IMG/VR virus record: IMGVR_UViG_3300019132_000061
Span: 1-39,168 of that record
Direction: 5' to 3' (one strand)
DNA from: a virus
Length of the DNA: 39,168 bases
Both the position numbers and the translations under genes were made by a program. The notes under the pieces were generated by a model, which was not told the DNA's origin, did not search any database, and was given only the letters and a program-made list of their open reading frames with translations. Every line of letters begins with the position of its first letter. The stretch's first letter is position 1. Below are positions 1,877-34,565 of this stretch, piece by piece.

Positions 1877-2331
1877 TGCAGTACACTATCTTCATCAATA
1901 TCCAACATGTCCATGATCATGTTTTCTTTAGCTATAATTACATTGCCCTGATCATAATCACTCAATCCTAGTCGAGAAATCTTATAACATTCATCATTAT
2001 GAGATAATTCCCTCAGAGTCCATGCAGGGAGAGACCCTAATTCATGAATTATTTCTCTAATTGTGTATTCTTCCTCGTCACTAGTAACTACGTTTTCATC
2101 CAGAAAATGAAAATTATTACGTACCTTTTTATTTACAGGTCCGTGTACCCAACCTTCAAAGTCATCGGCAAAAAGCCAGACCCCGAAATTCTCATAATGC
2201 CTCTTTTGACAAAAATAAAGCAGCTTATGCATTTTCATCTCTGTCAGATCATTTTCTATTTCGGTCATTTTGAATATTGATAGGTACAGTTTTTTTACTG
2301 CTGCAGCGATTTCTAATATATCGCGCGGCAT
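1873..2331 (-). CDS. Panacea-domain antitoxin (SocA/GepA-like)
   Basis: A 152-residue protein with the Panacea (formerly DUF4065) signature: the helix MKMHKLLYFCQKRHYENFG followed by the FEGWVHGPVNKKV motif at about residues 65-85. Panacea proteins act as antitoxins to unrelated toxins, and are also known as SocA and phage GepA. I chose the ATG at 2331 because AGGAGGTG lies six bases before it; the open frame continues to 2394 without such a site. It is first in a two-gene operon with the MazF-like toxin. Autoregulation is likely in such pairs, but I see no obvious operator. Confidence 0.82.
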   Translation of the reverse strand: MPRDILEIAAAVKKLYLSIFKMTEIENDLTEMKMHKLLYFCQKRHYENFGVWLFADDFEGWVHGPVNKKVRNNFHFLDENVVTSDEEEYTIREIIHELGSLPAWTLRELSHNDECYKISRLGLSDYDQGNVIIAKENMIMDMLDIDEDSVLQ

Positions 2332-2456
2332 AAAAAACACCTCCTCGATGTATCTATCGCAATTATTGCACACTGATACCATGATGTAAACCACATTTTT
2401 CCATAGATTAGCTTATGAGAACAAAGATTCCGCTAGCAGTCAGTAGGGTATTGTTC

Positions 2457-3179
2457 TTACTTCTTTTTTTCCATCCGCATGATGAGAACGGCCGCTTCCT
2501 CACGGGTAATCGGCGCGCCTGGGCGCGTCCCATCGAAATACCCTTTCTGTGTAGCTGCTTCCCACGCCGGCGCAGCCCACGAGCTGACAACGTTGATATC
2601 CCTTTCTTTAGTCATCGGCTTCCCCTCCTTCCGTTTTAGTCCCAGATACTTCGCGGTCCCGGAGACATGGCCGGCGATCAAGGCGTCAATAACTTCCTGG
2701 CGCTTGAGTTTGGCGGCGTCCGTTGTAACGTCGATAAACAGGTTCTCGGTCAGGACTGCCGGCATACGGCTTTCGCGGCACATGTGGAGATTCTTGGCCA
2801 GCTGTCCGCGATCGATCACATTAAACGGCTTCAATGCAGCCATGATCTCGGTGTGAAGCACGTTCTGCAGTGAACGAGCTGCTGCAGAAGCGTTGGTATA
2901 TCGATAAGATTCAAAGCCCCCAGCCCCTCCAGCGGCGTTACAATGAATCGAGACGAGGAGATCCGCGCCGGCTTTGTTGGCTGCGTGGGTCCGCTCATCG
3001 AGCTCCAAGAATACATCCGTTGACCTGGAGAGAAGCACCTGCACGCCCTCGTATTCGGCTTCCAGGCGTTGCTTGACGCCAAGGGATACCGTCAAGGCGA
3101 TATCCTTTTCCTGCAGGCCATTTCCGACTGCTCCCGGATCCTTGCCGCCATGGCCGGCATCAATCCATACTTTCTTCAT
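2457..3179 (-). CDS. endolysin: N-acetylmuramoyl-L-alanine amidase (Amidase_3) with SLH-like tail
   Basis: A 240-residue endolysin. Residues 1-178 form the zinc-dependent Amidase_3 fold: zinc ligands His10 (DAGHGGKD), Glu24 (LQEKD) and His79 (SIHCNA), and catalytic Glu145 (LTENLF). It would cut the amide between N-acetylmuramic acid and the stem peptide. Residues about 193-240 (WAAPAWEAATQKGYFDG ... ITREEAAVLIMRM) look like a single SLH repeat, probably for binding wall polysaccharide. There is no signal peptide, fitting release through the holin. Its ATG overlaps the holin stop (ATGA). It is the last gene of the late operon. Confidence 0.92.
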   Translation of the reverse strand: MKKVWIDAGHGGKDPGAVGNGLQEKDIALTVSLGVKQRLEAEYEGVQVLLSRSTDVFLELDERTHAANKAGADLLVSIHCNAAGGAGGFESYRYTNASAAARSLQNVLHTEIMAALKPFNVIDRGQLAKNLHMCRESRMPAVLTENLFIDVTTDAAKLKRQEVIDALIAGHVSGTAKYLGLKRKEGKPMTKERDINVVSSWAAPAWEAATQKGYFDGTRPGAPITREEAAVLIMRMEKKK

Positions 3180-3637
3180 TCAGATGCTCCCCCTTTCCGC
3201 TGCTCGGCACGTTGGATCTTTTTGTCCAGCTCCGATTTGACCCATTCAATTATCGCGTTTAAGACCGGCAATGGTAGATGGTCGCCCCAACCCGCACGGA
3301 TCGAGTTAGCTGTCATACTTTGCACAACATGGTATAGAGTACCGATGGCCAGCGCGCCGAAGATGATACCCGGCAGTTTGAAGACAACGTCCAGGAGATG
3401 GCCGCCGGCTGGAAGCAAGAGGATGAAGAACGTTCTGGCCACGCCATCGAGGCCGTACCTGCTGCCATACGTATTGTCACGCTTAGCGGCGCGAACACCG
3501 GACAGCCAATCCATAATGATGAAAAAGAGCAAGGCGGTCATAATGGCGATTACGGCTTCCCCCTCACCATACATAAAATCAAAAACCGGAACCAAAACGG
3601 CCCCGGCTGAGCTGAATATTGCTTTCCATTTATCCAA
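3176..3637 (-). CDS. phage holin (phage_holin_4 / TcdE-like family)
   Basis: A 153-residue membrane protein with about three hydrophobic segments (near residues 9-24, 30-46, and 68-105) and a charged C-terminus (KSELDKKIQRAEQRKGG). The segment ALLFFIIMDWLSGVRAAK is typical of the phage_holin_4 family, where a D-x-x-S/T-G element follows the second span. Holins open the membrane at a set time so the amidase reaches the wall. It directly precedes and overlaps the amidase gene, the usual lysis pair. Confidence 0.9.
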   Translation of the reverse strand: MDKWKAIFSSAGAVLVPVFDFMYGEGEAVIAIMTALLFFIIMDWLSGVRAAKRDNTYGSRYGLDGVARTFFILLLPAGGHLLDVVFKLPGIIFGALAIGTLYHVVQSMTANSIRAGWGDHLPLPVLNAIIEWVKSELDKKIQRAEQRKGGASE

Positions 3638-22127: not shown

Positions 22128-22157
22128 TTGACGCACGTAAACAAATAATGGTATAAT
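22128..22157 (+). promoter_or_regulatory. strong sigma-A-type promoter
   Basis: TTGACG (22128-22133) and TATAAT (22152-22157) with an 18-base spacer. It reads plus strand into the small-peptide ORFs, 26 bases before the first ATG. Confidence 0.8.
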
Positions 22158-22182
22158 AAATACATAAGGAGGTGAGAAAAAG

Positions 22183-22299
22183 ATGAAACCAAGAAGAGTA
22201 AGGCGCAAAGAGGAAAGAGAGCTAGACATCAAGTTAGCGATTGCAGTCGTTACCTTGATAAACTCAATCCTCACCTTCATCCTCCTGCTGGTCAAGTAG
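22183..22299 (+). CDS. small single-span membrane peptide (38 aa)
   Basis: A 38-residue peptide with a strongly charged N-terminus (MKPRRVRRKEERELD) and one membrane span (IKLAIAVVTLINSILTFILL) ending LVK. AAGGAGGTG lies ten bases before the ATG, and a consensus promoter lies just upstream, so expression is likely. The architecture resembles small type I toxins and the holin-like peptides of Bacillales, but I cannot assign a family. Confidence 0.6.
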   Translation: MKPRRVRRKEERELDIKLAIAVVTLINSILTFILLLVK

Positions 22300-22315
22300 G
22301 AAACCCCGAAACCTC

Positions 22316-22331
22316 GGCCCCGAAAGGGGCC
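22316..22331 (+). repeat. GAAA-tetraloop hairpin in the peptide operon
   Basis: GGCCCC-GAAA-GGGGCC is a very stable 6-bp hairpin in the RNA between the first and second peptide ORFs. No T-run follows, so it is more likely an RNA stability or translation element than a terminator. Confidence 0.6.
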
Positions 22332-22343
22332 AGGGAGTAGGTC

Positions 22344-22409
22344 ATGAAATATAAAGGTGCGCCTTACCTTCGATTATACCATAAAGGAGTGATAAGCTGT
22401 GACACGTAA
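22344..22409 (+). CDS. possible 21-aa leader peptide
   Basis: ATG at 22344 has GGGAG seven bases upstream and encodes MKYKGAPYLRLYHKGVISCDT. It overlaps the start of the next peptide ORF by 11 bases, so it could couple translation. It may be only an accidental frame. Confidence 0.3.
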   Translation: MKYKGAPYLRLYHKGVISCDT

Positions 22410-22491
22410 AGAAAAAGCCACTACGGTTATAACTTATGCTGCCTTGGTGATAAGCATAGTAAATAGCATTATCTTGGTGGTGAAGTGGTAA
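22399..22491 (+). CDS. small single-span membrane peptide (30 aa)
   Basis: A 30-residue peptide starting with GTG after AAAGGAGTGATAAGCT. It has the same layout as the first peptide: basic start (TRKEKATT), one span (VITYAALVISIVNSIILVV) and the end KW. Its TAA overlaps the ATG of the HTH gene (TAATG), so it is cotranscribed and probably cotranslated with it. Confidence 0.55.
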   Translation: MTRKEKATTVITYAALVISIVNSIILVVKW

Positions 22492-22715
22492 TGTATTCGT
22501 TCAAAAGCAAAGAAGAGTTAGCTGCTTGGATCTCTAATGAGCTTGTCAGCACCGCTGAAGCTATAGAGATCCTGGAGTGTACACGCCAGAATCTGCACTC
22601 GTTCGTGAAGCGCGGTAAGCTTACACCAGTTAAAGAGACAAACCGCGAGCGTTTATTCTGGCGCTCTGACGTTCTCGCTCGTAAGGAAGAAGCTGCTATT
22701 TACAACCGTAAGTAA
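22491..22715 (+). CDS. HTH DNA-binding protein (excisionase/MerR-like)
   Basis: A 74-residue DNA-binding protein. VSTAEAIEILECTRQNLHSF and VKRGKLTPVKET form the HTH_17 winged motif, as in excisionases and phage activators. It is third in a plus-strand operon with two membrane peptides, opposite to the flanking late and early genes, and ends at a strong terminator. Roles could include control of the peptides. Confidence 0.75.
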   Translation: MYSFKSKEELAAWISNELVSTAEAIEILECTRQNLHSFVKRGKLTPVKETNRERLFWRSDVLARKEEAAIYNRK

Positions 22716-22739
22716 CCCGTCAACTGACGGGTCTTTTTT
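22715..22739 (+). terminator. terminator of the small-peptide/HTH operon
   Basis: ACCCGTCA (22715-22722) pairs with TGACGGGT (22725-22732), followed by CTTTTTT. It lies at the HTH stop and separates it from the convergent minus gene at 22738. Confidence 0.88.
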
Positions 22740-23289: not shown

Positions 23290-23330
23290 TCATTTTATGG
23301 CCTTGACAGGATTCGAACCTGTCGTATACC
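23290..23330 (-). other. tRNA-like T-arm and acceptor 3' end fragment
   Basis: On the minus strand ACAGG-TTCGAAT-CCTGT is a perfect T stem-loop followed by CAAGGCCA, like the last 25 bases of a tRNA. No matching 5' acceptor (GGCCTTG) or clear anticodon arm lies upstream within a normal distance, so it is a fragment or a tRNA mimic. Confidence 0.5.
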
Positions 23331-23448
23331 ATGAAAGCCGTAATCAAATTGCAGTGATCTTAACTGCATTCCCCGCTTGCTACATCACCGGCGATAGACG
23401 CCTAGGCATAAGCCCACAATGTAACCGAGTCCTGCGACGATAAGGGGC

Positions 23449-23663: not shown

Positions 23664-24062
23664 ATGCTTAAAGTAAGAACTGATAAATATGAAATCTGGG
23701 AAAGCGGTGTCATCCTCATCAAAGATAATGAGCGTTTTGAATTCGTTATTTATGATGATAAAGAATTTGCAGAGCAAAACAAACATAAATCGGATTATAA
23801 AGACCACATGATAGTTCAGTGCGTTTTTTTAAAAGATACTTTTAATAATGAACCTCAGTTATCATATGATGTGGTTAACGATAATACCGGTCGAATAATC
23901 TTTATTAACTTCGATAAAGGGATACACGGCGTTACAAACCTGAAACCAATTGATGTTGGAATAAGAAACGGAAGACGCCTCCTTTTGGATTTTCGTATTG
24001 TAACCTACGGAGAAAAAGACTTGTCATTCTACTACAATTGGTATATTGGGGAGGAAGTCTAG
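23664..24062 (+). CDS. DUF6864-like protein
   Basis: A 132-residue beta-rich protein without signal peptide. The pattern IIFINFDKGIHGVTNLKPID followed by RRLLLDFRIVTY and LSFYYNWYIG matches my memory of DUF6864 proteins, whose function is unknown. AGGAGG lies six bases before the ATG. It forms a two-gene plus-strand unit with the next gene, distinctly more AT-rich than the flanking phage genes. Confidence 0.68.
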   Translation: MLKVRTDKYEIWESGVILIKDNERFEFVIYDDKEFAEQNKHKSDYKDHMIVQCVFLKDTFNNEPQLSYDVVNDNTGRIIFINFDKGIHGVTNLKPIDVGIRNGRRLLLDFRIVTYGEKDLSFYYNWYIGEEV

Positions 24063-24063
24063 A

Positions 24064-24387
24064 ATGAGTAAAGTTACTTTACCAACTTCAACTGATGATC
24101 CTCGGGCTCGAAAACAATTGATCGATTACAATCTAAAAGAGAAGGAACTGAACCTCAAAGCTGGAATATTAGGTAGATTTTTTGGTTCGAATAGCAACAC
24201 TCCTATTTATATAGTGGGTGCGGTATCACTTTTCCTATTGATTATCGGCGCTTTCTATACATTTATCCCAGAGTCCAATCGCTCCCCTTCTTTACCACTT
24301 GATAGATACTGGTCATTCACTCTTCCAATTGTTACTACAATAATTGGTTACCTCTTTGGTTTGAACTCAAAAAATAGAGAAGAATAG
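24064..24387 (+). CDS. small two-span membrane protein
   Basis: A 107-residue protein. A hydrophilic N-terminus with a helix (RKQLIDYNLKEKELNLKAGI) precedes two membrane spans (about 52-70, IYIVGAVSLFLLIIGAFYTF, and 84-99, WSFTLPIVTTIIGYLFG). The start is one base after the upstream stop; GGGGAGG in the end of the DUF6864 gene is its site. No known family. In context it may be the membrane effector of a two-gene system. Confidence 0.7.
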   Translation: MSKVTLPTSTDDPRARKQLIDYNLKEKELNLKAGILGRFFGSNSNTPIYIVGAVSLFLLIIGAFYTFIPESNRSPSLPLDRYWSFTLPIVTTIIGYLFGLNSKNREE

Positions 24388-32791: not shown

Positions 32792-33226
32792 ATGGAGGAC
32801 ATCATTTCTAAGTTGGTAAAACAGCATAAGACAAATTGTCCTTTTACCATCGCTAGAAATTTGAATATATCAATCTACTTCGAAGATTTAGGCCAAGGCA
32901 CCAGGGGATTCTACTACAAAAAATTACGTCGAAGGTTTATTTGTATACATCGTGATTTATCCGAAGAGTGGAAAAGATTTGTCTGTGCCCATGAATTAGG
33001 GCATGACAGATTACATAAGGGGATGAGTAGATTTTTTATAGATGAAAGATCTTTCTTCTCCCCAGGTAAATACGAGAGGCAGGCAAATGAATTTGCAGTA
33101 TTGCTTTTGCTATCAGGAGCCGACATTAATCAAGAAGATACTTTAACTAATCTGTTATCTAAAACGGGAATCCCGTATGAAATGATTGATTATGTCAAGC
33201 GAAAGGCGGTGATGACTAATGGCTGA
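32792..33226 (+). CDS. ImmA/IrrE-type metallopeptidase
   Basis: A 144-residue protein with the zinc metalloprotease motif CAHELGHDRLHKG (HExxH). Homologue ImmA cleaves the ImmR repressor of ICEBs1 upon induction. It follows the CI-like gene on the same strand. The start ATG at 32792 has GGAGG 12 bases upstream (CTGGAGGTACTGCTGCC). Confidence 0.88.
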   Translation: MEDIISKLVKQHKTNCPFTIARNLNISIYFEDLGQGTRGFYYKKLRRRFICIHRDLSEEWKRFVCAHELGHDRLHKGMSRFFIDERSFFSPGKYERQANEFAVLLLLSGADINQEDTLTNLLSKTGIPYEMIDYVKRKAVMTNG

Positions 33227-34565
33227 TATCTCAAAAAGGGGAGAAAATTCCTGGAGACTAACCGTTAGTTTAGGCAAGGATGCAAAGGGTAAAAAGATTC
33301 GCGAGCGAAGAACTGTTCATGTCACCGACCCTGCAATTTTAAGATCAGAAAGAAAACTAGAACAATATCTTAATGAAGAATGGCTGAAATTCAAAATAGA
33401 AATTGAAAGTGGTGTATATATCGCGCCTGAAAAAATGAAGTTCAGTGATTTTATCAATGAATGGCGCGATAAATATGCATCAGATCCTGAAAACCTTTCC
33501 CCCACTACATTAGATCGATATGAAGGGCATATCAAATCAAGGATCGAACCTGCATTTGGACACTTGAGAATAGATCAGATCAATGCAATGAAAATAATTA
33601 CATTTTTGAAGGATTTAGAAAAGCCAGGATCAAGATTGTCTCCGGCTACTAAAAAAAAATTAACGGAAGAGCAGAAGAAAAAACTACTGGAACCCTTAGA
33701 CGCAAGCACTATCGGATTTATTTATCGGGTGTTGAAAAACATTTTCACTCGAGCAGTAGAATGGAAAGTAATAAAAGAAAATCCTATGGAGGATATTCAG
33801 AAGCCTAAAGAAAAAAACGCGAAAGTTAAAATGCTTGAGCAACGTAAAAACCCTCAATATTATGACGAGAACGAAGCGCAGCTTGTTGTAGACGCGCTGT
33901 ACCAAGAAACACGTAAATGGAGATTATTAATTCTCGGATCAATGATTGGTGGTTGCCGTCGAGGCGAGTTAATCGGACTTGAATGGCACAATGTAAATTT
34001 CGATGATTGTACAATCGAAATTGAAAACAATATACCCCAAACTATTGATGGAAAAGCGGTCGAAAAGGGGCCGAAGTCAATCGCGTCATATCGTACAATT
34101 GATATGCCAGAATGGTATATGGAAGAACTCAAAGCATATTACAGAGAATGGCATCAAGAGAAAGAACAACTGGGTACAAAGTGGTTAGGGGAAGAGCGCC
34201 ATTTCGTATTCCATAATGGAAAAGGGAAACCTTACTACTACAAACACCCATCACGCTGGTGGGAGCGTTTCTGTAAACGCCATGGCTTAAGGTATATTAA
34301 GTTTCATGGACTTAGACACAGCATGGGCACGCTGCTCTTGGAGGATGAAAGCGAGTCTAATTTTGACTCGATCCTCATTGCAATTCAACGAAGAATAGGA
34401 CATGCAAGGTTATCTACAACCTCAGATATTTACGTCCACGTCACCAAAAAAGTAAAACAGCGCACCGCTGGTAAATTCGATAAATTTTCTCGCAAATCAG
34501 ATCAAGTCTTGGGGTCTGATGGGGTCCAATTGGGGTCCAAAACCCAACTAAGAAGGGTAAAATAA
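33219..34565 (+). CDS. int: tyrosine-type site-specific integrase
   Basis: A 448-residue tyrosine recombinase. N-terminal arm-binding domain (about 1-50), core-binding SAM-like domain (65-180), and catalytic domain with GSMIGGCRRGELIGLEW (first Arg), FHGLRHSMGTLL (H-x-L-R-H) and TTSDIYVHVT (Tyr nucleophile). It catalyses integration at the adjacent tRNA-Val site. It overlaps the ImmA-like stop by eight bases, so is in the lysogeny operon. Confidence 0.95.
   Translation: MADISKRGENSWRLTVSLGKDAKGKKIRERRTVHVTDPAILRSERKLEQYLNEEWLKFKIEIESGVYIAPEKMKFSDFINEWRDKYASDPENLSPTTLDRYEGHIKSRIEPAFGHLRIDQINAMKIITFLKDLEKPGSRLSPATKKKLTEEQKKKLLEPLDASTIGFIYRVLKNIFTRAVEWKVIKENPMEDIQKPKEKNAKVKMLEQRKNPQYYDENEAQLVVDALYQETRKWRLLILGSMIGGCRRGELIGLEWHNVNFDDCTIEIENNIPQTIDGKAVEKGPKSIASYRTIDMPEWYMEELKAYYREWHQEKEQLGTKWLGEERHFVFHNGKGKPYYYKHPSRWWERFCKRHGLRYIKFHGLRHSMGTLLLEDESESNFDSILIAIQRRIGHARLSTTSDIYVHVTKKVKQRTAGKFDKFSRKSDQVLGSDGVQLGSKTQLRRVK

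Follow-up and report, generated by a model that had tools for sequence, protein, structure and literature searches.

The plus-strand island at positions 22128-22739 of the window, by which we mean the whole 39,168-nucleotide stretch that was analysed, is probably a membrane-peptide cassette controlled by an antisense RNA, in the manner of type I toxin-antitoxin systems. The source is an IMG/VR virus record (IMGVR_UViG_3300019132_000061), read here as a Paenibacillus prophage with its late genes on the minus strand. The island carries a promoter (P1), a 38-aa peptide (peptide 1), a hairpin, a 30-aa peptide (peptide 2), a 74-aa helix-turn-helix (HTH) protein and a terminator. Sequence comparison finds both peptides, the antisense promoter, the mRNA structure and the operator to be conserved; the antisense transcript, the toxicity, the binding by the HTH protein and the biological role are inferred. 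The initial annotation had proposed a compact, independently transcribed peptide unit with its own regulator, possibly a toxin, and apart from its middle ORF this proposal is supported by conservation over 33 sequence clusters. Most of the functional information lies in three features that this annotation did not list: the antisense promoter, the folding of the mRNA and the palindromic operator.

P1 is a sigma-A-type promoter (TTGACG-18-TATAAT, 22128-22157, plus strand) with 11/12 consensus matches and a TG before the -10, and is the top-scoring promoter site within 21-24 kb. This consensus promoter, the HTH_17 protein (which passes the Pfam cut-off, E 3e-6) and the strong terminator closing the compact unit (an intrinsic terminator called at 22715-22732, within the part 22715-22739, plus strand) were all recovered as first described. 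Peptide 1 is encoded at 22183-22299 (plus strand) and is followed by the 3' UTR hairpin GGCCCC-GAAA-GGGGCC, seen in the sequence at 22316-22331; a hairpin at this place is conserved among relatives, but the GAAA tetraloop singled out in the initial annotation is not. Peptide 2 (22399-22491, plus strand) has a GTG start, and the stop/start overlap reported earlier is found where its stop meets the start of the HTH gene (22491-22715, plus strand). The immediate neighbours of the unit are minus-strand genes, and the statement that all surrounding genes lie on that strand is nearly right, the exception being a second plus-strand pair (23664-24387), in which a DUF6864 protein overlaps a membrane-protein ORF and which resembles another accessory cassette. 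The tRNA-like appearance of the sequence near 23303-23400 was discounted, as ARAGORN found no tRNA there. In the Paenibacillus phages examined, the unit occupies the same place, with terminase/HNH genes on one side and a late sigma/ArpU-type regulator on the other, all on the opposite strand.

To sample relatives, the HTH protein was used as the query against viral contigs, GTDB genomes, phage records and Bacillales genomes, and 80 loci with enough upstream sequence were recovered. A locus was parsed as a unit when the sequence before its HTH gene contained a sigma-A-type promoter and a small hydrophobic ORF. The neighbourhood search for small single-span peptides upstream of an HTH gene, suggested at the outset, found the order promoter (an equivalent of P1), peptide 1, peptide 2, HTH to recur in 60 of the 80 loci, which fall into 33 clusters that are related to each other, so that counts over them are not independent. 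The parsed loci belong to prophages of Paenibacillus, Lysinibacillus and B. cereus-like bacteria; in one cluster (L091) peptide 2 was misparsed and entered as peptide 1. A tblastn search of phages with the peptides alone gave no match, an alignment-based search for peptide 1 in viral contigs gave no confirmed relative, and an Rfam scan returned chance-level matches only. Tandem units with different peptide alleles occur inside one phage (L014, L054, L024, L026) and decayed unit copies were also seen (L048, L012, L105), a combination typical of addiction-type modules.

Peptide 1 has a basic N-terminus and one hydrophobic span, and its pairwise pN/pS is 0.27 (16 disjoint pairs; Fisher p 3e-27). 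Peptide 2, also with one hydrophobic span, gives 0.34 (11 pairs; Fisher p 1e-16). Both are read as protein because these ratios are well below 1, and conservation of the peptide reading frames in related phages, named beforehand as a check, is thus borne out for the 38- and 30-codon ORFs. The third small ORF then listed, of 21 codons (22344-22409), was rejected as a gene, since the frame in relatives closes after 3-29 codons and encodes unrelated residues. The motif RTGAAATAY (about 22344-22352 in the window) is conserved 43-53 nt past the peptide 1 stop in Paenibacillus-type units, with no conserved open frame. Peptide 2 has two forms: in the Paenibacillus and Lysinibacillus types it is a single-span peptide of about 30 aa, usually preceded by a Shine-Dalgarno sequence, and in the Bacillus/Solibacillus-like type it has 51-63 aa and two spans, mostly without a Shine-Dalgarno sequence. 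The two-span peptides of L018, L024, L040, L041, L042 and L085 lack a Shine-Dalgarno sequence yet are conserved as protein, and the hairpin 5' of such ORFs often has a purine-rich (GGAGG-like) 5' arm. Neither peptide 1 nor peptide 2 matched any Pfam, NCBIfam or PADLOC family, toxin families included. In the PHROG search, peptide 1 weakly matched a family with no assigned function (E 0.009), and a very weak holin match was also returned (phrog_35473, E 0.7).

The gap between peptide 1 and peptide 2 aligns poorly among relatives with the exception of one block, GATTATACCA. Read on the minus strand this is TGGTATAATC, an extended -10 promoter element (TGG-TATAAT, 22373-22381) with a predicted start at about 22366. 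Within 120 nt past the peptide 1 stop, the exact antisense motif is present in 18 of the 33 clusters, where dinucleotide shuffles predict 0.18, and the plus-strand, reversed and complemented control motifs are present in 0 of 33. In the whole 39-kb plus strand of the window, ATTATANCA has a single occurrence, at 22373. The motif lies 73-90 nt from the peptide 1 stop in the Paenibacillus type and 34-37 nt in the Bacillus-like type. Fifteen of the 33 clusters have no exact motif, some of these being one mismatch off; the main Lysinibacillus type (L033/L035) has no clear motif, and the -35 of the antisense promoter is weak. Close to P1, on its upstream side, lies a minus-strand intrinsic terminator (22102-22082) that could end the predicted antisense RNA, giving it a length of about 285 nt, or may serve minus-strand early genes instead. 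Minus-strand terminators within 160 nt of P1 occur in 13 of the 33 clusters (expected near 0), in most Paenibacillus-type units and almost none of the other types.

Up to the antisense start, the peptide 1 transcript is predicted to fold far more stably than shuffled sequences, with z -6.3 in the window and z -5.2 for the same mRNA in an independent folding run. Over the 33 clusters the mean z is -5.5 and the median -5.6, and z is below -2 in 32 of them. In the Paenibacillus type, codons about 4-11 are predicted to pair with a 3' UTR stretch beside the antisense promoter; in the window, GTAAGGCGCA within the peptide 1 ORF (22198-22207, codons 6-9) would pair with its perfect complement TGCGCCTTAC (22358-22367), where the antisense RNA is also predicted to begin. 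The arms match over 15 nt in L051 and 16 nt in L055, and their sequences differ between units. In a covariation test, in which the score of each 5' arm with the 3' arm of its unit was compared with its scores with 3' arms from other units, own-unit complementarity exceeded that of swapped pairs (permutation p = 5e-6, 15 Paenibacillus-type clusters); judged by this complementarity, the ORF arm and the 3' UTR arm covary within units. In Paenibacillus-type units the 5' arm lies at +11 to +33 of the ORF, over early codons and not over the Shine-Dalgarno sequence; sequestration of the latter by the 3' UTR, considered as a general mechanism, was rejected for this type. The long-distance arms are clear in the Paenibacillus type only; some Bacillus/Solibacillus-like units may instead pair their Shine-Dalgarno sequence with the 3' hairpin. 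Because the predicted antisense start lies inside the 3' arm, the 5' end of the antisense RNA would repeat the sequence of the ORF arm and compete with it for the 3' UTR. From the comparison of relatives it is very likely that a locked mRNA yields peptide 1 and that an antisense promoter opposes this mRNA.

The -35 of P1 is covered by an operator-like palindrome, TTGAC-GCAC-GTAAA (22128-22141), which follows the pattern TTKAC-N4-GTMAA. The right half of this pattern matches at at least 4 of 5 bases in 28 of the 33 clusters and, unlike the left half, is not expected from the -35. The P1 site is the only exact palindrome match in the window. Searched together with the -10, the operator pattern never occurred more than once per phage or genome: 11 of the 14 that were searched, among them a Paenibacillus genome of 7.4 Mb, had it once each, always at this unit, and its reversed control was found 0 times. 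Membership of a CI regulon was rejected as the simplest view of the operator, since the operator-promoter occurs once per phage and at this unit only. Likeness to a Lactococcus plasmid promoter, which has the spacing TTGAC-N3-GTAAA and an unrelated gene, was treated as convergence. L002 has two more membrane-peptide pairs and a different HTH gene in tandem upstream of its unit (2000-3490), and the promoters of these pairs carry TATCGGACATG-type repeats, not TTKAC-N4-GTMAA.

The HTH protein is HTH_17/MerR-like and matches phrog_4691, a family labelled excisionase (E 7.7e-26). Its AlphaFold2 model has a pLDDT of 90, and Foldseek finds the model weakly similar to BldC, MerR-type and Xis proteins, every E being above 0.03. 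A PADLOC match to mad1 (E 9e-5) was taken as a generic HTH match. The HTH domain also occurs, in phi OH2 (L007), L049 and L062, as part of a fusion with a DprA/Smf-like domain of about 340 aa, and peptides are absent from these loci; the fusion genes have palindromes at the -35 of their own promoters (TTGATAATTATCAA, TTGATAATCGACAA and TTGATGATCGTCAA, respectively). The HTH domain is a candidate binder because these peptide-less loci still carry the palindrome at their own promoters, and we regard it as likely that the HTH protein represses P1.

In the mechanism we propose, the mRNA made from P1 would encode peptide 1, the likely toxin, and would be strongly folded, its 3' UTR pairing back onto ORF codons 6-9. 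From about 22366, a convergent antisense RNA would run left over the 3' UTR and the peptide 1 ORF and silence peptide 1. Read-through from P1 would allow synthesis of peptide 2 and then of the HTH protein via the overlapping stop and start, and the HTH protein probably limits its own operon by binding to the palindrome that covers the P1 -35, with TTGACGCACGTAAA as the proposed target. Of the features that mark a type I system, the small hydrophobic peptide on a structured mRNA is found here (38 aa, pN/pS 0.27, z -6.3), and the antisense RNA is predicted from a promoter conserved in 18/33 clusters against 0.18 expected. By analogy with known toxins, the balance of probability leans towards peptide 1 being a membrane toxin. 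The cassette would most likely serve as a prophage addiction (maintenance) element or a stress-triggered toxin, and prophage addiction is favoured over a stress response or exclusion because different alleles stand in tandem and units decay in place.

The tandem alleles within one prophage can also be read as signs of a superinfection-exclusion or immunity cassette, in which constitutive membrane peptides alter the lysogen envelope and the antisense RNA and HTH protein only set the dose. The units are present in prophages and, like lysogenic-conversion cassettes, are oriented opposite to the lytic genes, with a promoter and terminator of their own. Such a role is unlikely: the mRNA lock and the conserved antisense promoter over peptide 1 suggest a peptide that is normally off, unlike a constitutive exclusion protein, and the peptides had no PADLOC match. 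More doubtful still is a reading of the HTH protein as an excisionase or lysogeny regulator whose expression is tuned, by translation or RNA structure, through the peptides as leader ORFs. The phrog_4691 match (E 8e-26), the overlap of the peptide 2 stop with the HTH start and the strong mRNA structure would fit such a regulator, but protein-level purifying selection on two hydrophobic peptides would be needless for leader ORFs. Moreover, the integrase gene (33219-34565) is not adjacent to the HTH gene but about 10 kb off, and the operator is found at the unit's own promoter only.

Lysis timing, raised in the initial annotation, fares worst, and it is very improbable that these are holin-like peptides acting in the lytic cycle. 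The single-span hydrophobic peptides, the phrog_35473 match and the position of the unit beside a holin/endolysin pair in Bacillus phage SDFMU_Pfc are in its favour. Against it, the Paenibacillus phage units lie beside packaging genes, between the terminase/HNH genes and the late regulators, opposite to the lytic genes and outside the lysis cassette; the best family match to a holin has an E of 0.7, and the promoter resembles a sigma-A promoter of the host and carries an operator of its own. The antisense-controlled toxin cassette remains our preferred reading.

Tiny peptides and unannotated antisense RNAs make type I loci hard to find. With the HTH gene as a handle, searches bring up dozens of candidates outside B. 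subtilis, some of them in Paenibacillus, and a full-text literature search gave no paper that had a prophage locus of this kind in that genus as its subject. If our interpretation is correct, it would also explain the recurrent plus-strand island between packaging and regulatory genes.

The initial remark that no described system has this form was too strong, as the yonT/SR6/yoyJ locus of SPbeta has the same order (PMC5848175) and contains a toxic single-span peptide, an antisense RNA and a weaker, two-span second toxin in one operon (PMC5848175; PMC6562991). The SR6 promoter psr6 is reported to have an extended -10 (PMC5848175), and the SPbeta record has ATTATAACA 46 nt past the yonT stop, a position that would fit the published SR6 overlaps. 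The shared features are a promoter, a short, basic single-span peptide, a 3' hairpin, an extended -10 antisense promoter and a second membrane peptide. The Bacillus-like units look almost identical in plan, with a stop-to-motif distance of 34-37 nt compared with 46 nt in SPbeta and a second, two-span peptide without a Shine-Dalgarno sequence that resembles the shortened yoyJ ORFs of other Bacillus species. Such yoyJ-like ORFs without a ribosome binding site were judged unlikely to be functional (PMC5848175), but the purifying selection on their counterparts here suggests that they can be real genes. SPbeta differs in having yonU/yonV, yonU being a different protein, where our unit has the HTH gene, and in having no TTKAC-N4-GTMAA palindrome. 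SR6 also covers the yoyJ ribosome site, whereas the predicted antisense start in the Paenibacillus type does not overlap the ribosome site of peptide 2. In the SPbeta start region of yonT, GTGCTTGA (L110:16490) has an 8-nt perfect complement, TCAAGCAC (16725), downstream of the SR6 promoter, possibly forming a similar long-distance pairing. Profiles of the Bacillus-type peptides score no better than shuffles against YonT and YoyJ, and the likeness may reflect either common descent beyond detectable similarity or convergence.

Other type I systems share parts of this plan. The txpA/RatA, bsrG/SR4 and bsrE/SR5 systems of B. subtilis prophages are likewise prophage-borne, encode membrane peptides of 30-59 aa and have a convergent antisense RNA over the 3' part of the toxin mRNA, but each has a single toxin, with no second peptide or HTH gene (PMC6562991). 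The aapA/IsoA system of Helicobacter pylori and hok/Sok combine a 5'-3' lock of the toxin mRNA with a cis antisense RNA, and in the hok and aapA mRNAs the lock covers the Shine-Dalgarno sequence (PMC6733600). Here a 5'-3' pairing is predicted in 15 clusters and would occupy codons 6-9 in the window in place of the Shine-Dalgarno sequence; those systems belong to another phylum and have unrelated peptides, and the HTH gene is an addition of our unit. The HTH protein shares a winged-helix-like fold with BldC/MerR-like and phage Xis proteins, and differs from them in its proposed palindromic site at its own promoter and in the distance of the integrase gene. Classical type I loci, to our knowledge, include no transcriptional autoregulator, and our reading, if right, would add one to type I control. 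The chances appear evenly balanced that these units form an unnamed, widespread class of Bacillales prophage cassette, in which a locked toxin, a second membrane peptide and an autoregulator are combined under three levels of control: operator, mRNA lock and antisense RNA.
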